A DNA stretch of 64,000 nucleotides. Origin: Nymphaea colorata. Taxonomy: Eukaryota; Streptophyta; Magnoliopsida; Nymphaeales; Nymphaeaceae. Positions within the stretch are counted from its first letter, which is position 1, and every line of letters starts with the position of its first letter. Location: contig NC_045139.1 in NCBI RefSeq assembly GCF_008831285.2, positions 2,736,704 to 2,800,703 of the forward strand, given 5' to 3'. The notes below the pieces were generated by a model, which saw nothing but the letters and a program-made list of their open reading frames with translations, had not been told where the DNA came from and searched no databases. Of the stretch, positions 2,704-47,622 are shown in pieces. The position numbers and the translations under genes are program-made.

Positions 2704-3222
2704 GGGACAAGTATTTTCCCGAAAAGGACAAGTATTTTCCCGAAAAGGCAAAACCCAATTTCACCGACATAACGAAACCCAAATGACATCAAAAAAAGGT
2801 TTCTTAGTTTCCCATGATCAACAACTCATCAAGAAATATAGTAAATAATCCCCAAACATCCATCAAGAAAAGGCATTGAGCAAAACCCCAGAAAACATCA
2901 AAAGAATAAAAGTTTGCATTTTGGCTTTGAATGATAGACAGGACTTCTTTCGTTTACGAAGCTCCCTGACCTACCTGCCGACGTCAGATTTGTTGAATTT
3001 CTAGGTACCCTTCAACCACCGGCCGAGCGCCCTGCCAATGCTTCAGGAGGAACTGCCGTCGTTGAAGCGTGGCCGGTGAAGCAACTATCGCCACCACTGA
3101 GGCCGCCGGCGGCTTCACTGCAGTCATGCCGTTTATCCGTGAAGATGATCCTTCTGTAAGACGCAGATAATGGGGTTTATCGTTGAGCCCGAGGGTTATG
3201 GAAACAGGGAGAGGATGCTGGG
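2704..3222 (+). repeat. Diverged duplicate of the PPR exon 1 region at 22976-23497
   Basis: This 519-bp segment aligns in the same orientation with 22976-23497, about 20 kb away, at clearly reduced identity. Matching landmarks in order are a GTATT-C-CG block near the start, ATCCCCAAACAT, the run ACTTCTTTCGTTT-CGAAG, CTTCAACCACCGGC, and GAGAGGATGCTGG at the end. It covers the promoter or 5' UTR, exon 1 and the start of intron 1 of the PPR gene. The local doublet GACAAGTATTTTCCCGAAAA (2706-2747) is private to this copy. Confidence 0.85.
2926..3127 (-). pseudogene. Pseudogene copy of PPR exon 1
   Basis: The segment is homologous to exon 1 (23176-23403) of the PPR gene on the same strand. The start codon survives at 3127-3125. 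A 2-nt deletion in the segment matching GTGGTGGCGAAGCAG shifts the frame, and a CGA codon has become TGA in the segment matching TCCTCCCGAAGC. Further sequence is missing near the start of the copy and before the block ACTTCTTTCG. The GT donor that ends the real exon reads GC here (CAAA|GCCAAA). No copy of exon 2 is found nearby, so this is a dead fragment from segmental duplication and not retro-copied, since flanking promoter and intron sequence came along. Confidence 0.85.
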
Positions 3223-3885
3223 TCTAAAGTATGTTTAGTGGGCATCTGGTTTTGCATTGATGGCAAAAAATACCATCGACTATCGTAGGCTTAAACAGGT
3301 CTCTTGTCCCAAAGGAAAAGGGAAAACAAATGATCACTTACATGCTATTTTGAATGTATGTCATTCGATCGAATTAAGAACCAGAACTACTCGGATGTTA
3401 GGTCAGAATTGGAATTTACATAAAATTGAAGGTGACAAATGTGTATGACTTTCATTTACTGTGGGGATGTGATGCGTCCGCTTGACTTTAAAAACATATA
3501 CTTCTTTGCATGAAGTCAGCTTTATATGCTGAAAAACTCAAAACAATCGATCATAATGAGACAAAAAAATTGAGTTACACTTCTCTTTTCGCGTTTTGAT
3601 GCCTTTAGCTTTATTTATATCGTTAGAGAAGCAGCAAAGCAATACTCTCATTCAGTTTTTCCTCTAAGAGGAGCTGCATCATGGTGTTTTTCAAATTTCA
3701 AAGATGAAAGCGCGGGAAATGAGCGGCCCTAGGATGAAATTGGCAAAATAAAAGGACGAACTTGCTCTAAGTAGGTTTTGCTATGTTGTGTTGATGATGA
3801 CTCATAAGTTGGCGTGTTTGAATTGTCAACCAAATCACATCTCAATGCTTTAATGGACATATCTCTCGTCGGAATAAATGATTAT
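3223..3885. other. Intergenic region, no gene seen
   Basis: AT-rich sequence with only short open frames lacking recognisable domains. Nothing else can be supported. Confidence 0.6.
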
Positions 3886-4585
3886 GGGCTCGTTTGATGG
3901 CTGAAAAATGAAAAGGAATGAAGTTTGAATTGGTGAATGGGAAATAAAATTTCATTTCTTCAAAACTTGTCTTTGGTAAGTTGGATTTATATTTCTGAAC
4001 AAATTTATGGTTTGATGGATTTATATTTCTGAAAACAAATTTATGGTTTGATGAAAAAATGTTGGAATCGGTGGAAACGAAGGGGAAAGAAGAAGAACGA
4101 AGGGAAAAGAGGAAGAAAGATGAAAAAGGGAAGGAGGGAAGAAGAAGGGAGGCAGAGGAAAAAGGGAAGGATGGAGGAGGAAGAAGAAGATGCGGCTGGA
4201 AGAGGAGGAGGCGGAGCGGCCGCTGGAGAAGATGAAACCGACGATGCCCTTTCCCCTTCATTCTTCCTCTTTCCCCTTCGTTCTTCCTCTTTCCCTTTTT
4301 GCTGCTAGACGCTGCGCTGGTGAGGAGATGCCCAATCAAGCCGCTAGTGATAACGTTATGCAGGAGGGCATGAGGAGAGGAAGATGATGATGGTGCTGAG
4401 CGTGAGAAAAAGAAGATGAGCGACGTGTTTGATAGCATGGGTGGAAAGATGTTTCCGGAAATATATTCCCGAATTCTCGGGAAATGGTCGATTTTTTTTT
4501 CCATGTTTGATAACATGGAAAAATTTTAAAAATTTGAAATAAATGTCATGTTGAACAGTATATTTCCTGTGAAGCAAACGCTCCC
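3886..4585. mobile_element. Probable non-autonomous DNA transposon (MITE-like, about 700 bp)
   Basis: The segment begins GGGCTCGTTTGATGGC and ends CAAACGCTCCC, so the ends are inverted copies matching at about 9 of 11 positions. The left end resembles 25051 (GGGGCGTTTGATGGCC) and the MITE at 62335. The interior is a purine-rich tract (about 4080-4300) and carries two further GTTTGATA-CATGG motifs near 4430 and 4505. TAT flanks both ends and could be a 3-bp target duplication, but this is weak. No coding sequence is credible; the open frames in the GA tract are low complexity. Confidence 0.45.
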
Positions 4586-5298
4586 TATATAGGAGTTACT
4601 ACTGAAATGTAGTACGACCATATTCAACACATGAGAAAGAAAATAGGTGAAGGCTGATGCCTTCCAAAATCCATGGATGTAACACTTAAAAAAGTTAGTT
4701 TTGTATATGGAATCTTCAATGACTTGGGTTTATTAAATATATAATTGTCTTAGTTTTTAATAAAACTAAAATTATTATGGGGTAAGTTGAGATCCAAGCT
4801 CGAGTTCAAAAATGGGTCAAATTGTGTGTGCTTGAAAAAGATGTGGATTGTAATACCAAAAGAAAATGTAGTAATACCATATTAATGAGATGATTGTGTG
4901 TAACTGTTTTTTTTTTATTAAAACCAATAAAACTATTGGGTCTAATTGTTACCAAGAACGCAGCGACAGGATGTGAAAGAACGAGATATTGGATGTACTG
5001 CAAAACTGAGGAGTAAGAGCTATCACTTCAATTATTATACACCGCTATCGACTAGACACTGCTATGGAGGGCATTGGTATGCTTGGGGCCTAAGAGGAAC
5101 CGATGCTCGCCCGCGAACAGTGGATGCAAGCTACGGCCAATCCCTGCTTGGACGACAACTGCACAGACATGGAGGCGACTACTACTCGGGTCCCTGCGGC
5201 TTCCCATGATACCATTCCTTGCCCCTACCACTGAAGGGGCCATTTCTGGCCACCAACACCGAGTCTGTTTCTGGTCGGCTTTCTAAGTTTGTGGATCT
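4586..5298. other. Intergenic region, possible LINE leader after 4.95 kb
   Basis: No conserved gene seen. The last 350 bp, just before the LINE start codon, hold overlapping open frames on both strands and could belong to the LINE 5' region, but no domain is recognised. Confidence 0.4.
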
Positions 5299-5930
5299 AT
5301 GAAACTTCTTTCTTGGAACACTCGTGGCCTAATTGGGCATTCTGCGCAACAGGACCTTTTTTCTATTGTTAGTGATCAGGGTGTTGATGTTTTGGTTCTT
5401 CTTGATGCTTACATGTTTCTGGGCCCTTCGACCGCTGGAAGTCTAGCTATAAGCATTTTGCTGTTGCTTCTAATATCGAGATGCTTGGCATTGGATGAGA
5501 TGCCCTCCAAATGAAGGTGGAGTACTGTAGCTTACTGAAGGGAAAGATCTCCAAAAAGCTGGCTGGATGAAAAGGAAGGCTTTTATCATATTTTGGTAGA
5601 ATGTATTTAATAAAACGCGTTATCAACCAGATTATTGGATATTGGTTGATGTGCTTCTTGCCTAATACAGTTATTTGCTCCCTAGAGGCTGAATGCAGTA
5701 AATTCTTCTGTGAGATGCAGAAAATCATAGAAGAATTCATCCCATCAGTTGGAAAACTCTCTAGGCCAGAAGAGGAAGGTGGTGTTGATGGCAAAACTTT
5801 GGGGGATATGAACAGATGGACAGCATACTTAGCAATGACGGGGAGAGACCTCACTAATGATAAGATACAGAGAAGTGAAATCAGCATGGAAAATTGCCGT
5901 CATATGTCTAGATCTTCCGAAGAAACTTGA
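5299..5930 (+). mobile_element. Deleted LINE (non-LTR) retrotransposon remnant
   Basis: An ATG at 5299 opens with MKLLSWNTRGL, the usual start of the plant LINE ORF2 endonuclease, with DVLVLLDAY following where the family has D-L-Q-ET. By about 5500 the sequence has jumped to the thumb region after the reverse transcriptase: KVEYCSLLKGKISKKLAGW, then VINQIIGYWLMCFLPNTVI and, with frame changes, RPEEEGG and TLGDMNRWTAYLAM. The catalytic reverse transcriptase core is absent, so the copy is internally deleted and crossed by stops and frameshifts. Sequence to about 6770 may hold degraded 3' parts of the same element, but I recognise no domain there. Confidence 0.7.
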
Positions 5931-8860: not shown

Positions 8861-9842
8861 ATGAAAAGATCAAGGTCTCCACGATATTCCGAGAGGTTTG
8901 ATTATGAGGGTGATGAAGGAGAGGGTTCTTCACCTCCTTCATCATGCTCACCACGGGTGAGGGAAGATGGGTTTCAGTATGACGTGTTTCTGAGCTTTAG
9001 GGGAGCAGACACTCGCAAGGGTTTCACGGGCCACCTCTATTATGCATTGGATGACAAGGGTATCGCTACTTTCATCGATAGTGAGAAGTTGGAGAAGGGG
9101 CAGAAAGTGGAGGAGCTGTTTGGATACATTGAAAGATCCAAGATCTTTGTGCCCATCTTTTCCAAGGCTATGCTGATTCAAAGTGGTGTTTAAAAGAAAT
9201 AGCCAAGATTGTGGACTGCAAGAGGCTTGTCATACCGGTGTTCTTTGATGTGGAGCCAAGAGATGTCCGCCATCAAACTGGCCCTTTTGCCAATGCATTT
9301 AGAGGCTACTTTCAAAAGGAAAACACACACAAAGAAGAGGTGAGCAAATGGAGTTCAGCTTTGACAGAAGCAGGGCGAATCTCCGGATATAACTTGGCCG
9401 ATACAGATGGGTAAGTAAATAGCTTACCCTAATCTGTTCTCTTTATCGGACATTTAACATTTTTTTTTATATGATAGATTGTTTAGATCTACATGTCCAG
9501 TCCTTGATCCCATTCAATTCTCACATACGTAAATAAATGAAAAAGGCACACTTAATAGTTTAATCACCAATTTTTTGAGAACTTAAGTTGGATGGGCCTC
9601 TAAGCCGGTTATATATGCTGTCCTCATGTATGAAATTTTCTGTGTTATTTTAATAATGATAAAAAATGTTCACGATTAATACAAAAAAAAAATTGTAGAG
9701 ACAAAAAAAAAAACCACAAGAAAAAAAAGCATTTGGAGATTTGATAAAGGTAAAGAATGTTAGCCCGTAAATATATATAGTTATGACCAATATACTCATT
9801 TATGTAGTAAAGTGTGTTTTCAATTATTTGTCCTACTCATAG

Positions 9843-10150
9843 TGTTATCTCATTATCTCAAATATTTTATTATCTCATGCTTATGTTTAGTGTTATCTCA
9901 TTATCTCATAAATATTATCTCATACTTATGCTTAGCGTTATCTCATACACGGTTCCTCATTTTATTATCTCATAAATATTTTATTATCTCACAAACATTA
10001 TCTCATGTTTATGTTTAGCGTTATCTCATACATTCATCCTTTATATTATAAATCTTTTATATCTCATAAACATTATCTCATGTTTATATTGCGTTATCTC
10101 ATACATTTATCTGTTATCTCATTATTTTAAAAGTATTTTGTTATCTCATA
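9843..10150 (+). repeat. Degenerate TTATCTCA repeat array in intron 1 of the TIR-NB-LRR gene
   Basis: The octamer TTATCTCA occurs about 15 times in some 300 bp, often as GTTATCTCATAC or ATTATCTCATAA, with irregular spacers and variants such as TATGTTTAGCG. On the minus strand each copy reads TGAGATAA and so contains a GATAA core. Surrounding sequence is simple AT-rich DNA with a (TA)n and TTTA run at about 10387-10425. Confidence 0.8.
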
Positions 10151-12878
10151 CTCATTAAATCATATTTATTTGTTGTTTCATACCTATTTGTTATGCCATG
10201 CACATGTGTATGCAATCTTTGGGCATGAAAGTAAATGTGTGTACTGGTAGTAGAGTCCACATACGGCGTATGCTCATTACGTACACAATAGCAGCATAAA
10301 AAACTCGATCCACCAAAAACTACTTCCCGATGTGTATATATATACATCTCTACTTAAAAACTACTTTCCGATGCATGTGAATATGTATATATATATATAT
10401 ATATATATTTTTATTTATTTATTTATTTATCTGTGTGTGTGTGAAAAGGTCTTTCCTCACACCAAATACCAGCCAAGCAAATCGTTCGACTGGTATGGAC
10501 CGATCATGTGGACGGTTCATTCTTTGATTTATAAAATAAAAATAAAAACATTCACCGAACATTCGAGAGGGTGGGGTGGTAGCCGTGATGTGACGGGTGC
10601 GTCAATCAGACAGATGTAGGCTCAATTGAAAAGAAATGAAGGGAAGGTTTGTTGAATTTGACGATTTGGCATTGGGAGAATGTTGCGGACCGACTGTGTG
10701 TGGCCCGGCCAAGCCAGTAGAAGGAGATGCTGTTTGGCCAGCTTAGGCATTGCTCGGGAAGCATGTGAGATCCAATCGGACGCTACATCAAGCAGAAAGC
10801 AATGCACGTGGATGTGCAACGTGGTGGTGCAGCGACGAAGTGTATAAATGCATCATGGTCATCAGTCCTTTTGAAAATGCAAGTCCATACTTGGGGAATC
10901 AATTGGGTTCCCTACAGGGATGCGTGTGGGTTAGGGGCAATTCTTCTGGTGGGACTAGATGAGGAGTGCTACGCACTCGGCATACCATCACCCAGGTTTA
11001 TCTCATAGTAGACCATCGGCAAGCCGTGGTCATGACGCCTTGTCAGAACATCGTCATTATTTAAGTATTTATCTAATTCCATACGAAATCTGAGTGGGAA
11101 TAGACTTCTCTTGAAAGAAAGTCGCAGCATTGCCTCCCGTCCTTCAGCAAGGGGGAGGCCATTGAAGAGGAAGACAGCCTCCCTCTTCGTTTTTTCATTA
11201 CCAAAAACCACAAAAAAAACTCACGAGTTACCTAACCAGCTCACGTAGTGAGCTTACTTGCCCAAGTCTCCCACTCACTTGTGCCCTTGACACACACTAG
11301 GTTGACAGACATACAGCTTGAGTCACCGAATCCCACATGTTTTTTTATAATATAAAATGATTATTTTTATTTAAGGTGGGACCCTTTTTATCCCACTGAC
11401 CTACCAAAGGGTGCGTGCTTAGTTTTGTGTCGCTTCTATTGGTATAATTTCATCTTTTTTTCTTTTTGATGTTTCGGTTTACTGTGATCATCTGTACACA
11501 ATTTTGTGAAGCAAAAGAAGAACTACTATTGCAGATGTGATGCCTCTATTTGGAAAGCTATGAATTGCTTCTAAAATCATGTTTTTGGTTGCATAGACTA
11601 AGCTTTATATGCTATTAATTCCAAAGGGTAATAAGTTTGACTATTTAACTTTTTGGTCTTGTTGCAGAAACGAGGCAAAGCTCATCCGGCTCATGGTGAA
11701 GAGGATTCTGACGGAAGCAAGTAAGACCTCTCTATTGGTGGCCAAACATCCAGTAGGACTCTATTCTCGCATGGCAAATGTGATGGAAATGCTTGACATT
11801 GAAGCTCAAGGTGATGCTAGAACGGTTGGGATCCATGGAATGGGTGGCATCGGCAAAACGACACTTGCTAAGGGTGTCTACAACCAAATATCTACTCGTT
11901 TTGATGCATGTAGCTTCATTTCTAACGTGAGAGAAGCAGCTGAGCAACCATCAGGACTCATTTCCCTACAAAAACAGCTGCTTGGTGATATTTCCAAAGA
12001 TGAAAATATAAGTCTCAACAGCACCAGCCATGGAATTGTTATGATTAAACAGCGGATTCGAAGTAAGAAGGTTCTGCTAGTTCTTGATGATGTTGACGAT
12101 GAATCACAACTAGAAGCATTGGCCGGTGGCATAGACTGGTTTTGCTTGGGGTCAAGAATAATTGTTACTACTAGAGATAAGCTGATATTGAGGGCACAAA
12201 AAGTGACCCCGTATGAGCTCAAGGGGTTAGATGCTACCCAATCACTTCAGCTTTTCAGTTGGCATGCATTTGGTAAAGAGGAGCCGACTGCCGAATTTGC
12301 AAAGCTATCAAAGGAAGTTGCTGCTACTGCTGGTGGGCTACCATTAGCTCTTGAAATATTTGGGTCCCATTTCTTTGATTTAAAAACAGTTTAAGAATGG
12401 AAAGGTATGTTGGAAAAGTTGAAGAAATATCAAAACAAGCATATCCATGAAAAATTAAAGATAAGTTATGATGTACTTGATGAAGAACAGAAAAAAGTAT
12501 TTTTAGACATTGCATGCTTCTTTATTGGGCAAGAAAGAGAGCATGCTATTCTCATGTGGGAAGGTTGTAGGTTCTTTCCAGAGATAACAATCAAAGTCTT
12601 AATGCACAAGTCTCTAGTCAATATAAATGATGATACTGGAGAGTTTGAAATGCATGACCATATCCGGGACATGGGAAGAAAAATCGTCCAAGATGCAAGG
12701 AGCAGGTTGTGGGAAGATGATGAGACTCTAGATATACTTCAAAACAAGAGAGTAAGAATCTACTGCACATGCCTGCCCATATAAGAAAACTAGTTGTCAC
12801 TACCAATGCAAACTTTCTTGGTATGAAAAATAAAATGCCCGAAATTGGTGCCTGTAAAACTCATGTATCTCCTCCAAA

Positions 12879-12913
<35 letters not shown>

Positions 12914-13732
12914 ATTGTTGTTGATCTCACTGACTAAATTTGAAATGCAGGGAAGGGAAAATGTTGAAGCAATTCAACTCGGTTGGCGTGGAATTGAGGA
13001 TTCGATGTCTGTGGAAGCAGAGTCTCTGTCAGCAATGTCTCAACTTAGGATGCTCCGGATGGGAAGAAATGTGAGATTGGAAGGTGAATATGAACATTTC
13101 CCCAGGACTATCAGATGGTTGAAGTGGCGTCTATATGACTTGGCTTCATTGCCTAGTGCCCTTCATCTTAAGAATATTGTTGTTCTTGACTTATCTGGCA
13201 GCTCCATAACTCGAGTTTGGAGCCAGCAAACATCTGCAAGGACCAAGGTAAAAGACAACCCTTTTTAAGTATATGCCCACTACCTATGTTTTTTTTTTTA
13301 GAAAATTATTTTTTTATTGGCAAGACAAAGTTATGCGGATCAATGTTGCCAATGTTGTGCCGTTACATGCATCATATCAGCCACAAAAAGGAGTTAAATA
13401 AGTAGATTTTTTATTTTATTAAACATTTTTTAGATCACTAGTGGATTTTCCTTTAAAAAGAAAAATAGAGAAAAAGCTCCCTACATGAGGTTGACGTGTA
13501 TCTGTCTTACTAACTTTTTCCCAATATTTTTTTATGAAACTGAGATTTACAACATTACGACGATTGTGAGAGAGAGAGAGTGAGGTGCACACACACACAC
13601 CCCATACGTGGTTGTTGATTTTTATTTTTTTTTACTTTCCTTGGGCTAAAGATGTAGTTAGGCAAGTGTATAAAACTTCATTTTTTGGATTTTATGGCAT
13701 TCATCTGACAAAACAACTTTTTTCCTTTATAG

Positions 13733-14983
13733 CTCTTTGGGAAATTGAAGGTTCTAAAACTCGACGGTTGTGAGAACCTCACCATCTGTCCAAATTTTAT
13801 GAGCATGCCACATTTAGAGAAATTGTATTTCAACGGATGTGTGAAGATGACTGAACTTCATCCGTCTATTGGGCTCCTCAAGAACTTGACTCACTTGGAG
13901 TTGTGTGACTGCACATTACTAAAGGAACTACCTGAAGAAATTTATGAATTGACCTCACTTGAAGAGCTTGACCTCAGTGAATGCTCTCACATTACCACTT
14001 TTCCATCAGTATTGGGGGATTCGAAGTCACTGGAGCAGCCTTTGCTTGGTAAATTGAAAATACTTTACCTCTGTAGTTGTGAGGGACTCACCAGCTGTCC
14101 GGATTTTATGAGTATGCCACATCTAGAGAGATTGAATTTTGAGAGTTGTGAGAATCTAAGTGAACTTCATCCTTCTGTGGGTCATCTCAAGAGCTTGACA
14201 CACTTGTATTTGACAAGCTGCCATTCGCTAAAGGAACTGCCTCAAGAAATTTGGCAATTGACCTCACTTGAAGCACTCGACCTCAGTTATTGCTCTCAGA
14301 TTACAGCTTTGCCGTCACAGGTTGGAGATTCTAAGTCATTGAAGCTGCCTTTGCTTGGCAAATTGGAACACCTAAGTCTCAACTATTGTGATAACTTCAC
14401 TATTTGTCCAAATTTCACTAGCATGCCACAATTAGAGATATTGGGGTTCAGTTCTTGTGAGAAGATGGGCGAACTTCATCCATCTATTTGGCTTCTCAAG
14501 AACTTGACTGACTTGGATTTGAGCAACTGCAAATCACTAAAGGAACTTCCTCCAGAACTTTCTCAATTGACCTCACTCAAAAGGCTTACTGTCGATGATT
14601 TGTACCAAATTATAGTTCTGCCTGAATCAATAAGACACTTGAAGCAACTGAATTATTTGTCTCTAAAGGAGTGTTCCTCATTGATAGACGTACCGAAGTA
14701 CATTGCCTCACTGGATCAGCTTGAAAACCTAATAGTTGCTGGTTGTGAGCAGCTCAAATTTTTACCTCAGCTGCCGCCTTCCCTCACCTTTCTTGATGCC
14801 TCAGATTGCTATCAATTAGAAATCATAGCAGAAGTATCACATCTAGAAGGATTACAGGTATTGGATCTAAGTGGTTGCAAAAGGCTTGTGGACGTTCCTG
14901 GCATCGAGCAGTTGAAATGCTTAAAGAAGCTAAAGCTTCGAGGCTGTGGAAGCCTCCATGTCTCATTTTTGGAAGGACTTCAG
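13733..14983 (+). repeat. Triplicated LRR module inside TIR-NB-LRR exon 4
   Basis: Exon 4 holds three successive copies of a module of about 103 residues: 13733-14041, 14042-14350 and from 14351. Each starts L-GKL, passes through CPNF or CPDF-SMP-LE, ELHPS, L-NLT or L-SLT, and LKELP-E. Copies 1 and 2 end in GDSKSL; copy 3 runs on into a different end of the domain. Exon 5 (15771-16547) repeats the layout of copy 3 and its downstream part, down to the same final motif LRGC-SL before its donor. Confidence 0.85.
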
Positions 14984-17900
14984 GTAAGCGACATATTCAA
15001 GAACGTATGGTATCTCTTTTTCCATTAGCTGAGCTTCATTTACTTGGTAGGAGCAACTTGTGAAGATTACCAAAATAGTGGGATGTCGAAAGTTCAAAAC
15101 TTGTGGAATAAACAAGATACAGATGAATGCAGCCCCACAAGGAAAATGTTCTTTATAATTTAGCCTTAAGATCTATTTTTACAAGCCTCAACACTAAAAG
15201 CCTTATCTGCAATATACTGAAATGAATTTCAAGGATATAAATGTAATTATGTTTGTCTATAAGATTTTAAATAACATATTATTGATTTTTCTTAATTTTT
15301 TCATAAGTTGCAGACGCTAGCAAGTGGAGTTGCTAGTCTTGCTCAATGTAAAGTTGCTTTAGTATTGAGAAGCCTGAAGGAAGGTCTCGTTCATGCTCAA
15401 GGTTTCACTAAACGCAGAGCCTGAAACGAACATTAGAATTAATACAAGTGCTTGCTTGATTTATACAAGCTTTTAAGGAATTAGTGCAAGTGGTTGCATG
15501 AGTAAGTTAAGCAGATATTTACTTATCTTATTGAGTATTTTAAAATATTTAATAATTTTTTAATAAATAAAAGTCAATAAGGGCCCATTAGGTATCTGCA
15601 ATAGGTGTTCCTTCTTCAAACTATAGCTCGTACAGTTTTGGTTGATCCAAGATTCCAAATTCCTTACAATATTAGCTATATAAGAATAAAACTTTTAGGC
15701 CCCTATGCTTCAACTCGTGCTCAGGTAATTTATTCTTACATTTTTTCTCCTTTTTCTTTTGGGGGACAAGGTCCTTGATACATTGGAAGTACTGGATCTC
15801 AGAAATTGTGACAACCTCACCAAGAGTCCACATTTTAGGAGCATGACACAACTGCAAAGACTGGATTTTAGAAGTTGTACTGAGATGGCTGAACTTGATC
15901 CTTCTATTGGGCATCTCAAGAGCTTGACTGACTTGGTTTTGAGCAACTGCAAATCACTAAAGGAACTGCCTCAAGAAATTTCTCAATTGATATCACTCGA
16001 AAAACTTGACCTCACTGGTTGCCACCAACTTACAGCTCTGCCTAAATCCATGAGACGCTTGAAGCAACTGAACTGGCTGTCTCTACGGCAGTGTTCCTCG
16101 TTGACAGAAATACCTGAATGCATTTGTCTGTTACTCAATCTTCAAGAACTAGATGCTTCACACTGTGAATCTCTTGCATCTTTACCTGACTCACTTGGCA
16201 ACTTGGAGAGCTTGAGGAAGCTTGATTTGAGTTGGACAGCCATTGAAGAGTTGCAAAGCTCCATTGCATCACTAGATCAGCTTGAGGCCCTATCAGTCGC
16301 TTGTTGTGATCGTCTCAAATCGTTGCCTCAGTTCCCACCTTCCCTCACAGGACTCAAAGCAACATCTTGCACCGAATTGAGAACGATATCAGATGTCTCA
16401 AGCGCGAAGAGACTAAAGAAATTGCATCTATGTGGCTGCACAAAGCTTGTGGACCTTCCGGGCATTATGCAGTTGGAATTCTTACGGACATTAGACCTTC
16501 GAGGATGTACAAGCCTAATTGATGACTCATTCTTGGATAGACTTCAGGTAAAACAACTTCTTCTAAGAAAACCCCTATATGTCTGTTCGCCCATTAGCTA
16601 AGCTCCACTCATTTGGTGGAGGTAACTCGTGAAGGTTACCAAATTACTGGGAAATCTCACGTTCAAAAATCTTTTGTGGCAAACAAGGTCCAAGACTCGA
16701 AGTTCATGAGGAAATGTCTCTTTTCTGGGAAAATCAATTGCACAAAGTATGTCTTTTTTCCACGGTTCTTATTCAAGAAGAATACAGAGCACGTTCCTGA
16801 GAATGTGAATGCATCTGATTTGAATTGCGAAGCTGATCTTTACTGTTATTGCTGAATTCGAAAGGAAACTGTAATCAGATTCAAGATGTATGTAAAAGTT
16901 AATTGATTCTTGTAGGGTTAAGTGAGACAGTTTCTCTATCTTGTGTTTGTCTTGTCAAATTATGCAAGAGCAACTGTGTGAATTGGTGAGAAAAACCTCT
17001 GCAATATTTTTCCTATAACTCGAGGGAAATGAAAATCCCTTGGGGTGCATCTGAGAGCCCTTTTATGTGGGACTCATTGTGCAAACAAACATAGATTTAA
17101 CCATTATGTGAAAACAAGGATTTGAACTCCTCAGTTTATAGCCAAAACCTCATATTTAAGGTTGGATGGGAGGGGGGGCTGACCTTAAATCTTCTGACGT
17201 GATATTTTCATTGATCTCAAATCACCTCTGATCTCAAAGTGAGGCAAACAAATGGCCCCTTGAGGTGGCATGTGTTTACTGAAGAGTGCATCTTGGTGAC
17301 GGGCATGCGTGCTTGCTCACTGACATCTCCATGCTCTGTTTCCTCAGGAAGCAAATTTTCAAGATCTGCATGAGTTCTCCATCTCCGGAATCCTGACCAA
17401 CATTGGCGAGCCATCATGTCCACAATCTCTGTCTTTCCTTCTTCCCAAGCAGTTCAAGGCAGGCGCCTTGTATTTGCAAACAAACGAAAGCGGGCTGGGC
17501 AGCAGTCTCTCGGAACTAGACGAAAGTAACAGCGCTTCGGAACCAGATGAAGGCATTAATCACAGTGAGGAAGATAGAGGCCTCGATACCATTGGCTGGG
17601 AACCAACTGATGAAATCATTCCAAGCGACGACGATTGCAGCGTGGACAGCGTTGGCTCGGAACAAGAAAACAGAAGCGTAGAAAGTGAAGAAGACACTCT
17701 CCCCGTAGACAGCCAAGGCAGAGTCGTTCGAATAGAGATCACGACAGATGATGTTCAATTTCACTTTTCAGCTTTAGTTAAACGGAATGCAAGTAGGACG
17801 TTCCCCACGGCTACATTTGGGAGGGATAGCGAGCTGATGATGATGATAAGACAAGGAAAATTCATGGGAGATGATGATGCTAAGAAAAGGACGATGATGA

Positions 17901-18183
17901 AGATGATTGTATCCATCGATGGCTGCGTCCTACTTGATGGTGATCTATTCACTAATAAAAACCATCATATTTATGAAGGTGAGCTAGACCTTTGTCCTTG
18001 TGAAGTTTGTCATAAGAGTGTTATGGTGAAGTTTCATTGACCGTGCTGCCTTTATTTTTATGTTTTCACCATTAATAGACAAGTAGCTAATGAATAATGG
18101 CTTTTTATTTGTAATTGCAAGTAAGAAAAATGAGCAAGTTTATTGTGGGCATTTGCATAATTTATTGATGTCGAAGCTCAAGG

Positions 18184-20442: not shown

Positions 20443-23403
20443 CTACGTAGAAATTGATTGAAGCATCTTTTCGGTCTCTGGATTCACTTTCAAATTGTCG
20501 GTTTCCAGCCTCTGACGCATGTCTGGACTCTTTTTCCCAGCTGCAACGTAAGTTCTAATCAGTGACTCGTAAACTGCAGAATTAAGACTGCCTGCCTTCT
20601 TCAGGATCTGAACCAAATTTTCTGCGCCATCTACATCACGCTGCTCTTCAAAATGGGTCATCATAGACTCCACGGTTTCTTGAGCCGGCGTCCATTTGTT
20701 CTTATCCCTCTTCCCAGTTGCAGCGATTGCATTCTCCATGCACTTAACAGAAATGTTGAATTGCTTGGTTGCAAAATAGTAATTAAAGAAAATTTCCCAT
20801 GTTGTTGTGTTCAGCACTGCACCCCGACTGACAGCTTGTTCACGCATTGCCTCTGCCTTCTCTATCTCACCACCCTTCACATATGCACCAATCAGCACGT
20901 TAGGCAATCTTACATCATATTTTGGGCAATCAGCTTCCCACTCTTTGAAACATTTCTCAGCACCAGGAAGGTCACCAAGATTAACCAAGGTCTGGATCAT
21001 AATCAAGTAGTTCAAGTTGACTGTCTTAGGGCATGCCAATTTTAAAGAACGCCAAACACGGTAAACCTCTGTCAAATTACCAGTTCGGCCATACAATGAC
21101 ATCAGAAAATGAAAAGCAGGAAGACGATGCACATCCATTTTACTCTCAAGTTCTTTAAGTGCATCTTCTGCCTTTTCCTTCAAACCTGCATTCACATAGA
21201 TCGAAGCAATATTACTGTAGGTGGTCCAATCAGCAGTAACAGAGTTATCTCCCTTCATCTCATCTAAAATCTTTTCTACTCCAGGAATGTCACCCAAAGC
21301 AGCAAGACTCCTCATCCAAACATTATATGAGAAGACGTCTAGCATGACCTTGTTAGCCTTCATATCCTGAATTACAGCAGGAACCTTTTCAGGCTTCCCA
21401 CCTTTTGAGTAGAGGGCCATCAAGCTATTGAATGCCAAGGGGTTAGAGACAAACTTCTGCTCCTTCATTTTCTCCATAAGGGTTTCAGCTTTCTCGGTCA
21501 TTTTCCCATTGCAGTAACAGTTGAAAAGAGCTCCATAAGACTGATGGTTTTTTGATGGTTCAGGAAGATCAGTAAAATACTTCTCAGCAACAACAATCCC
21601 CTTGATTTTGGAAAGAAGATCGATCTTAATTGCTTCATGGCTTGCCGTCAAATCCATACCTCTCTTGGAAGCTGTTTCAAGAAGCTGCATCATTAATAGC
21701 ACAAATTAGTAAATTATCTGTGAAAACTTTTACAACTAAAAATGGAGAAAAATGCTCAAGGTTAAGCAAACCACTATTGTATGTTCTACAATAGCCCAGA
21801 ATATTTGAATGTTTACGATTTGACATCTGCAATGTAACACATTTCTCACAAGCATTCAAAATTTAAGTGGTTATGGCGCTATTAGTCAATAACAAGTGAA
21901 GAAAGCATAAAACTGAGATAAGAAGATACAAGCTTTTTCTGGAGTTACAAACATAATTTGTGTCTATGGACAGAGGAATGTGGCTCAACCTTGAGAAAAT
22001 ACCTACTGAACATTCTCAAAACAAAGAATCTGCAAGAAAAACGCCCTTTAATTCTCTTAATCAAACAGATCAGCCACTCTATACACCATAATGGCAAGTT
22101 TTCTTGAACAATTCAAGCACCAAAAGAGCAAATAATAAACCAAAGCAACCCCCCCAAAGCAGACAACCATAGAAAAAAATATCATGAAGTGTACCCAAAA
22201 CAGCTGAAGAAACAACGAAAATATACCTTGGCTAATCTACAATAGAAGCCAAATGATAATTATCTACTGGAGTAATTCCCATCGAAGTCAGCATAAAGCT
22301 AGTCGTAGAACAATTTTCGAGGCATACTACAAGATTTGGTGATAATATACGTTAAGGATAGAGATTGAATGTTTACGCGCTGTATTATTCATGTGCTATA
22401 ATGTCTTGAAATTTTGAAACTAGGGAGATGTATTATATGCTTCCACCCCAATATCAATTATCCATCACTGTTAGTATTTTATGGTAAAAGGCACGATAAG
22501 AAGCACAGTTAGGCACAAGAGGTCCAGGCGACGAAGGCTTGAAAATTTGAAATATAAAAACTTTGTAAAGTTTAATGCCATTTCAGTTTTCCATGTTTCA
22601 AATTGTGGCAGCTTGCGGAGCATAACTCAACAAGACTTCTTAGATCCCTTTGAAAAAGAAGCACACCAAAGCACCTCAATACCATGATTAACTATGTCCT
22701 AAATTACCAGCATCTCTTCTACCTTAACAAGCCAGGCAAGATTAAGGCCACCATTGTAGTAACTATGTTCATCAATGACAGTTGAATTACCAACGTTCTC
22801 CGTGTTTTAAGTACTTATAAACTTAAGTAAGAGCACCGCTTGATCACCAGGCAAGAGGAATCGCACAAGGAAAATGCGAAGAAGTCAAAACTGCAAGAAC
22901 ATAAAATAGAACAGGGAGATAATAACACGCCCAATCCATCTCCTAATCCTAATATATCATTTTTTTTCGAGACAAAGGGACCAGTATTCTCGCCAAATGG
23001 CAACACCCAACTTCATCAACATAATGAACTCCCAAACTGCATCAAGAAAAGGATCTAAGTTTCCAATAACCAACAGCCGTTATACAAAAGAATCCCCAAA
23101 CATTCATCAAAATGAGAAAGGGAAATGAGAAAGGCTCGGCAGAAAATAATGAGACAAAGAATTTGGGTTTCTTACTTTGAGGGCTAGAGAGAACTTCTTT
23201 CGTTTGCGAAGTATCCTGACCGACGTCCCGACCTCCCATTGGTTGAATTGCTTGGTATCCTTCAACCACCGGCTGAGCACCTTGCCGACGCTTCGGGAGG
23301 AGCTGCCCTCCTTGAACAGTAGACGGTGAAGCGACTGCTTCGCCACCACCAGTGCCGCCTCGGCTGCCGGCGTCGCCACCGTTTCGGCTACCTGTGCAGC
23401 CAT
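20443..23403 (-). CDS. P-class pentatricopeptide repeat protein (At1g60770-like), two exons
   Basis: Exon 1 is 23403-23176 (76 codons) and exon 2 is 21684-20443; the CAAA|GTAAGA donor and ATGCAG acceptor join in phase 0, giving 489 residues. The layout matches the Arabidopsis At1g60770 group, which I recall at about 490 residues. Typical motifs are present: FSLALK into LLETASKRGMD at the junction, SYGALFNCYCNGKMTEKAE, AFNSLMALYSKGGKPEKVP, YSNIASIYVNAGLKEKAEDAL, EVYRVWRSLKLACPK and LPNVLIGAYVKGGEIEKAE. PPR proteins of this kind bind organelle RNA and usually act in mitochondria or plastids; the short Ala-rich N-terminus could be part of a transit peptide, but that is inference. The intron is 1,491 bp. 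Reading frame is clean throughout. A dead copy of exon 1 and its flanks lies at 2704-3222. Confidence 0.9.
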
Positions 23404-45640: not shown

Positions 45641-47437
45641 TCATACGCCTAAATCCCTTCCCATTTGCATATCATTTAATTCTTCAAAAGGCCGCTGATT
45701 GATTGGTTCACTGTCTATTTCAATCCAGCTACACCCAGGAATCCTTGCCAGCCTCTGCTCCTCCACAGCCTTTCTCATCCTTTTGGCATCATCCCACCTC
45801 CCTGCAGATGCATAGATGTTACATAGAAGAACATAATACCCACTTGCCTCAGGTTCCAGCTTAAAGCACTGATGAGCAGCAATCTCGCCAAGCTTAACGT
45901 TACAATGAATATTACAAGCAAGAAGCAATGCACCCCATACACCAGTATGCGGAGTCATAGGCATGCTTCTGATGAGCTCGTATGCCTCATCCAACCTCCC
46001 AGCACGTCCAAGCAGATCAACCATACAGACATAGTGATCAGCAGATGGATGAAGCCCATAAACCGCACTCATGGAAAGAAAATATTGAAGTCCTTCATCC
46101 ACTAGACCACAATGATTGCAAGCAGTCAAGAGTCCAATAAATGTAACAGAGTTTGGCTTCACATGAGCAGCAACCATTTCGTTGAAGAGCAGAATGGAAT
46201 CACCTGCACGGCCATGCATTGCACATCCCAGGATTATTGCTGTGTATGCCACAACATCTCTGTTTCGTAATTTCAAGAACAGAGAGTAAGCATCATACAC
46301 GTTTCCACATTTTGCATATAGATCAACCAATGAGGTAATGAGATGATCGTCCATTTCCATCCCAATTTCACGACAATAATTCTGGATCCATAGTCCAAAG
46401 GAGAAATCACCCAACTGAGAAGATGCAGAAATAGCACACACTATGGTCATCTTGTCAGGCTTTATCTTCACATCGCACTCCAACATTCTATTAAACAAGT
46501 TAATAGCCTCTCTTGGCCGACCATTCTGCGCGTAGCAAGCAATCATGGCATTCCATATGGTTCTATCTTTTCCACAAGCCCAATCAAATAACTCTCGAGC
46601 TAAATCAACAACACCGTGCCGAGCATATCCAGAAATCATTGTAACCAAAGACACATTGCTTTTCTCTGGCATGCTATCAAATAACTGACGAGCTGTCTCC
46701 AGATTACCTGAATCAATATAACCACCGATGAGAGTATTCCACGAGGCAGGATTCCTCTCTGGCATCTCATAGAACAACGCCATTGCAGAATTCATATCCC
46801 CGCCTTTCACATAGCCCAAAATCAAAGTGTTCCACGACACCACATCTTTCCCAGGCATGTCGTCAAATATTTTACGTGCAACTATCAATTCCCCACATTT
46901 CACGTAGCCAGAAATAACAGAATTCCAGGACACTACATTTCTCTCAGGCATTCCATCAAATACTTGCTGCGCGGATCGCATGTCTCCAAACTTCGAGTAC
47001 ATATCCACAAGGGAGGTCTGTGCATAAACATCGCAATCAAATCCAAACTTACAGACCTGAGAATGCAGTCCCCATCCGATCTTCTTCTCAAGAATCCGAG
47101 CGCACGCCTTGAGAACGGCGGCGAACGTGAAGGAGATGGGCAGAACGCTCGATTCTCGCATCTGAGCGTAAGCAGAAATGGCGTCTCTGAACAACCCATT
47201 ACGGCATAACCCTCTGATCATAGAATTCCAAGCGAAGACGTCAGGATTCTGGGCTTTTTCGAAGATCTTCTTGGCGTAGTCGGTGTTCCCATTGGCGTTG
47301 CAAGAGTTGAGGAGGTTGGTGAGGACGAAATTCGACCACTGAATTCCACTGGTAATAATACGCCCATGTACCCTCCTCGTTTGCTCGAAGTCTTTACATC
47401 TCTGCAGCAACGAAACCAGCTCTTGAGTGGGGAGCAT
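45641..47437 (-). CDS. PPR protein with E domain (PLS class), single exon
   Basis: An intronless frame of 598 residues starts at ATG 47437; the GTG just before it is not a plant start. It opens with LVSLLQRCKDFEQTRRVHGRIITSG, the usual lead of PLS-class PPR proteins, followed by about a dozen PPR motifs such as VVSWNSVISGYVKCGELI, VVSWNTLILGYVKGGDMN and TIWNAMIACYAQNGRPREA. The C-terminus has the E domain (GVWGALLLACNIHCNVKLGE, then YYVLLCNIYASAGRWDDAKR and PGCSWIEI) and stops without a DYW domain. It resembles Arabidopsis At4g22760, although that assignment is from memory. Such proteins specify sites of C-to-U editing or other RNA steps in plastids or mitochondria. The frame is clean. It is transcribed away from the OCRE/G-patch gene across a gap of 185 bp. 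Confidence 0.92.
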   Translation of the reverse strand: MLPTQELVSLLQRCKDFEQTRRVHGRIITSGIQWSNFVLTNLLNSCNANGNTDYAKKIFEKAQNPDVFAWNSMIRGLCRNGLFRDAISAYAQMRESSVLPISFTFAAVLKACARILEKKIGWGLHSQVCKFGFDCDVYAQTSLVDMYSKFGDMRSAQQVFDGMPERNVVSWNSVISGYVKCGELIVARKIFDDMPGKDVVSWNTLILGYVKGGDMNSAMALFYEMPERNPASWNTLIGGYIDSGNLETARQLFDSMPEKSNVSLVTMISGYARHGVVDLARELFDWACGKDRTIWNAMIACYAQNGRPREAINLFNRMLECDVKIKPDKMTIVCAISASSQLGDFSFGLWIQNYCREIGMEMDDHLITSLVDLYAKCGNVYDAYSLFLKLRNRDVVAYTAIILGCAMHGRAGDSILLFNEMVAAHVKPNSVTFIGLLTACNHCGLVDEGLQYFLSMSAVYGLHPSADHYVCMVDLLGRAGRLDEAYELIRSMPMTPHTGVWGALLLACNIHCNVKLGEIAAHQCFKLEPEASGYYVLLCNIYASAGRWDDAKRMRKAVEEQRLARIPGCSWIEIDSEPINQRPFEELNDMQMGRDLGV

Positions 47438-47622
47438 CACAGGTTAGAGCATCCTGAACTTTCATGGCGGGAAGGCGAGGAGGCCTACTTATCAGGGCGA
47501 CGTCAAACGGTTCCAGTTCGGGTCACGTACTTGTTATACAGCACGGAACCGGAAAATAGACCTTTGATAGTTTGATTGCCGTCATTTGATCGGAGCGTTT
47601 CCAGTCCTACGGTTTTACACAA
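47438..47622. promoter_or_regulatory. Compact bidirectional promoter between PPR-E and OCRE/G-patch genes
   Basis: Only 185 bp separate the two start codons, on opposite strands, so both 5' leaders and the core promoters must share it. It is less AT-rich than the surrounding DNA and has no clear TATA box in either direction, which fits a housekeeping-type shared promoter. Transcription starts cannot be placed by reading. Confidence 0.6.

Follow-up and report, generated by a model that had tools for sequence, protein, structure and literature searches.

The window, a 64,000-nucleotide stretch of Nymphaea colorata DNA, carries a TIR-NB-LRR (TNL) gene of six exons and five introns on the + strand at 8861-18040. 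The exons were positioned by reading frame together with consensus splice sites, and are laid out as follows:

8861-9410, + strand: exon 1, an N-terminal leader and the TIR, spread over two frames; ATG at 8861, donor GTAAGT past 9410
11668-12751, + strand: exon 2, NB-ARC and winged helix (Pfam NB-ARC 1.2e-28, WHD_ROQ1 7.6e-15)
12951-13247, + strand: exon 3, a linker up to the start of the LRR, in phase 0 at either end
13733-14983, + strand: exon 4, LRR, containing three units of 300 nt in register, from 13736, 14045 and 14354
15771-16547, + strand: exon 5, LRR, much of it duplicated from the 3' half of exon 4 and since diverged
17348-18040, + strand: exon 6, a C-terminal region of 230 aa past the LRR, open to the stop at 18038-18040

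The intron donors read, in order, GTAAGT, GTAAGA, GTAAAA, GTAAGC and GTAAAA, and the acceptor is AG in all five. With phases of 2, 0, 0, 0 and 0, the five GT-AG introns are mutually consistent, and the exon model thereby bears out the original prediction that every intron keeps its phase. The retention of five introns also rules out a processed (retro) pseudogene. The summed exon length, 4652 nt, is a multiple of three minus one. Beyond a frame break at 9166-9168 and a TAA at 12392-12394, the translated exons hold no further stop or frame break; the count of just two breaks in about 1,550 codons was thus correct, with 1548 codons counted here.

By descent, the gene belongs to the TNLs, a class whose presence points to a plant outside the grasses. 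An N-terminal TIR is present (PF01582, positions 1-68 and 66-141 of 179, in two frames), followed by an NB-ARC with winged helix (PF00931, 7-204 of 248; PF23282 WHD_ROQ1, 1-74 of 76) and a C-terminal LRR that is matched by several Pfam LRR families, LRR_4 being the best (1.2e-47). The TIR, NB-ARC and ROQ1-type winged helix stand in the same order as in the TNL ROQ1 (PDB 7jlu/7jlv), which is the best PDB match of the gene's middle piece (E 3.1e-64). ROQ1 is an intact protein, whereas the N. colorata gene is broken twice and ends in an exon 6 for which no PDB match was found at E<=10 and no Pfam match at E<=1. The single-sequence fold model of this exon reached a pLDDT of 39, too low for use. 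A post-LRR C-JID/PL domain occurs in many TNLs, not in all.

The first interruption falls in the TIR exon:

9166-9168, + strand: lesion 1, a one-base frame break, recognised by translating both frames
9184-9198, + strand: WCLKE segment with the catalytic Glu codon at 9196-9198, out of the ATG frame

In the frame of the ATG, the TIR starts with YDVFLSFRG and continues to FSK at 9166 (102 codons), after which eight foreign residues lead to the stop codon at 9191-9193; the TIR resumes at GYADSKWCLKE in the other frame. When each frame was searched alone, the Pfam TIR profile was matched at 1-68 (8.5e-17) and 66-141 (3.1e-15), respectively. Because these parts of the profile adjoin, each frame carries one half of a single domain, which a chance overlap would not explain, and conserved motifs do lie on both sides of the lesion, as had been claimed. 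The "missing G" proposed at 9166-9167 holds only in part: a single base is missing from one codon at 9166-9168, yet naming it as G was a guess, since the sequence does not tell which base was lost.

Both TIR halves match the TIR structures of L6 from flax and of RUN1 and RPV1 from grape, and GYADSKWCL is letter-for-letter identical with L6. Unlike in these proteins, the TIR halves of this gene are in different frames and the catalytic Glu lies behind the break. The WCLKE segment aligns with WCLDE of RUN1 (6o0w), and another RUN1 entry, 7s2z, has Ala at the same Glu. According to passages of the respective papers, the putative catalytic Glu of RUN1 is E100 (PMC7282519), and the equivalent Glu of RPS4 is required for both NADase activity and the cell-death response (PMC7414095). 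A functional TNL would be expected to encode this residue in frame; here its codon is found past the stop at 9191-9193, in another frame.

The second interruption lies in exon 2, among motifs designated as follows:

11837-11863, + strand: P-loop of the NB-ARC, its codons undamaged
12065-12097, + strand: kinase 2 of the NB-ARC
12149-12178, + strand: RNBS-B of the NB-ARC
12335-12352, + strand: GLPL of the NB-ARC
12392-12394, + strand: lesion 2, an in-frame TAA between GLPL and RNBS-D
12500-12523, + strand: RNBS-D of the winged helix
12650-12658, + strand: MHD of the winged helix

The TAA is in frame with both of its flanks, the NB-ARC profile (7-204 of 248) being matched before it and WHD_ROQ1 (1-74 of 76) after it, in keeping with the earlier description of a stop within the NB-ARC flanked by conserved motifs. 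A functional TNL would also have a single uninterrupted coding sequence, and that of this gene is interrupted at both 9166-9168 and 12392-12394.

As the gene stands, the unmodified spliced exons contain three ATG-initiated open reading frames of at least 80 codons, encoding 110 aa (8861-9193), 233 aa (11693-12394) and 1120 aa (12407-18040). The lesions sit within domains and not between them, and none of the reading frames encodes a complete TIR, or a complete NB-ARC together with the winged helix. In the 110-aa product, the TIR match begins at residue 39 and covers about 65 residues; the remainder is the N-terminal leader and the eight out-of-frame residues. The original prediction of a TIR of about 111 residues without WCLKE was right in that the product ends ahead of the catalytic Glu, but the length is 110 aa and only the stretch of about 65 residues matches TIR. 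With so short a TIR portion and without the catalytic Glu, the product would be predicted not to hydrolyse NAD+; the claim that it would be incapable of NADase activity is accordingly well founded as an inference, given the need for the Glu in RPS4 as described in part of PMC7414095. Exon junctions more than 55 nt 3' of the stops number five for the first stop and four for the second, a configuration typical of nonsense-mediated decay. Transcripts of the gene, stopping at codon 111 with five junctions downstream, are probably degraded by nonsense-mediated decay, a process whose control of NLR transcript levels is among the topics reviewed in PMC6032283.

Two lesions in the 1548 counted codons correspond to 0.21-0.58% neutral divergence (best estimates over nine rate settings), the widest 95% limits being 0.06-2.1%. 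The nine settings vary the transition bias together with the indel rate, on the assumption of 0.05-0.2 indels per substitution, of which 80% are frame-shifting. The gene's own LRR duplication is much older. This intragenic duplication relates 14354-15099 to 15774-16668 (+ strand), with a likeness that extends into the following intron: exons 4 and 5 are 76, 71 and 75% identical in three blocks, and the intron part comprises 87 nt at 75% (JC 0.308). The pooled exon 4/exon 5 block, 193 codons from three alignable stretches with the intervening parts of exon 5 that have no counterpart excluded, gave dS 0.459, dN 0.281 and dN/dS 0.61 (bootstrap 0.40-0.92), with no stops, indicating that the LRR has on the whole been constrained since the exon duplication. 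Six comparisons of single LRR units returned dN/dS values of 0.40, 0.70, 0.43, 0.66, 0.65 and 0.65, the limits of which reach or pass 1 in four of the six pairs (R1/R3, 0.41-1.26; R3/R4, 0.37-1.19; R1/R4, 0.40-1.10; R2/R4, 0.38-1.01); constraint is demonstrated for the pooled block and, among the unit pairs, only for R1/R2 and R2/R3. The lesion-based divergence is far below the age of the LRR-exon duplication, and, provided that the lesions are genuine, the loss of function would therefore be confined to the latest, short part of the gene's existence.

Upstream of the gene, the window holds the remains of a related sequence:

3592-3807, + strand: old NB-ARC relic, from the RNBS-A region to kinase 2, about 5 kb 5' of the TNL ATG
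3834-3897, + strand: perhaps a winged-helix remnant, a collinear continuation of the relic; marginal, its score being reached in 16 of 1000 simulations

The relic was found by tblastn (E 0.001), and the matched stretch contains two in-frame stops. Aligned with exon 2 at 11897-12109, it is identical at 148 of 199 aligned bases (74%), with nine gaps, seven of them frame-shifting. The local alignment score was 127, whereas the highest score among 200 first-order Markov simulations was 54 (exon 2 versus 2800-5400); this comparison and the winged-helix part were the ones controlled by simulation. Against the rest of the window, exon 2 scored 127 for the relic and 43-57 in the other five comparisons, and the best local scores of exons 1, 3, 4, 5 and 6 on both strands were 30-48 (30 comparisons). 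The relic, which the original prediction does not mention, shows that a related sequence had already decayed upstream of the TNL at an earlier time, and its heavy decay is unlike the state of the TNL gene, where just two isolated lesions are seen. Searches of the protein pieces against the window at E up to 10 returned the gene itself, the LRR repeats and the relic, but no second NLR that could serve as an intact comparator; rows at E 0.87 to 10 were put aside as chance. In prokaryote and virus collections, which contain no plant genomes, pattern matches to the NB-ARC stretch occurred in 14 viral and 47 genome stretches, none of which was confirmed. Rfam returned no matches and ARAGORN no genes.

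Taken together, the locus is best read as a full-length, non-processed TNL that was recently disabled, being either a young fixed pseudogene or a null allele, and we put the probability of this reading at roughly 77%. One lesion would have abolished function and ended the constraint, after which the second lesion could have arisen. Two breaks amid intact splice sites and motifs imply a recent loss of constraint, or else error. The original prediction had named recent inactivation, segregating alleles and sequencing errors. Each of the three keeps some probability; recent inactivation and a segregating allele, taken together, rank well above error at both sites.

An intact gene, with each of the two breaks a mistake of sequencing or assembly, seems unlikely. 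Nothing besides the two lesions is broken in the exons, a lack of further damage that would also be expected if both sites were in error, and the first break, an indel of one base adjoining a short G run, is of a type common among errors in long-read assemblies. The second lesion, however, is a base substitution, which is a rarer type of error, and error at both sites is ranked lower for this reason: a sequencing error may account for the indel and is less likely for the substitution. The window is also free of N, and the two largest open reading frames outside the gene, of PPR type and 600 and 420 aa long, are undisturbed. The latter are a weak control: they were chosen because they are open, and, at the break rate of the gene, about 3.1 kb would be expected to escape damage by chance in roughly one case out of four.

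It is less probable still that the locus was lost as a receptor and retained in another role, either giving rise to phased small RNAs through cleavage at the P-loop sequence or acting as a split gene with separately active products. The undamaged P-loop codons would suit the former, as miR482/2118 target P-loop sequences, and in tomato TAS5, a non-coding RNA derived from NLR sequence by rearrangement, supplies phasiRNAs by which other NLRs are regulated (both from passages of PMC9650292). The same codons would be expected to be intact in any young pseudogene. For the split gene, three reading frames are left, and truncated NLR products can be active, as noted in a section of PMC6032283; the lesions nevertheless fall within domains, and no frame retains its TIR, or its NB-ARC and winged helix, in full. 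TAS5 resembles this locus in carrying NLR sequence without a receptor product, but, in the account given in part of PMC9650292, it is rearranged from several NLRs and backed by small-RNA evidence, whereas the N. colorata locus is collinear and known from sequence alone. The locus might be a null TNL allele, held at intermediate frequency or retained as a small-RNA source, whose transcript, cut at the undamaged P-loop sequence, would give phasiRNAs that dampen intact paralogues elsewhere in the genome, a proposal to which we attach very little weight. Slimmer again is the chance that the lesions lie on different haplotypes joined by a collapsed or chimaeric assembly, each real allele having at most one; NLR loci are highly polymorphic and the two sites, 3.2 kb apart, are unphased, but a single assembled haplotype explains both lesions without it.

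As a single locus, a recently disabled TNL exemplifies the birth-and-death turnover that is ordinary among NLR genes, with the receptor at an early stage of decay and an old relic about 5 kb upstream. Its importance would be greater if the lesions segregate within the species. Loss of TNL function is a usual basis of resistance differences between accessions. NLR pseudogenes with stops or frameshifts are common, and this locus is one more example: 179 of 435 NBS genes in potato are pseudogenes, mostly through a premature stop or a frameshift, and the shares cited for Arabidopsis and Medicago are 8.05% and 14.74%, respectively, all according to passages of PMC3321028. The potato pseudogenes described there are of the same kind, an NBS gene cut by a stop or frameshift, with two lesions in one gene in the present case. 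The locus also advises caution with NLR catalogues, in which automatic annotation could render the three open reading frames as separate truncated genes.

Some further features of the window were observed. Intron 1 contains, at about 9843-10169 on the + strand, degenerate direct repeats rich in TATCTCAT; the many matches in the same intron around 10381-10443, obtained when the DNA of the locus was compared with the window, were put aside as low-complexity. The two PPR-protein open frames lie on the - strand at 20443-21705 (420 aa) and 45641-47443 (600 aa, with an E motif), and neither has an internal stop. At about 5300-5430 on the + strand is a stretch that, judged by eye, looks like the start of a putative LINE endonuclease.
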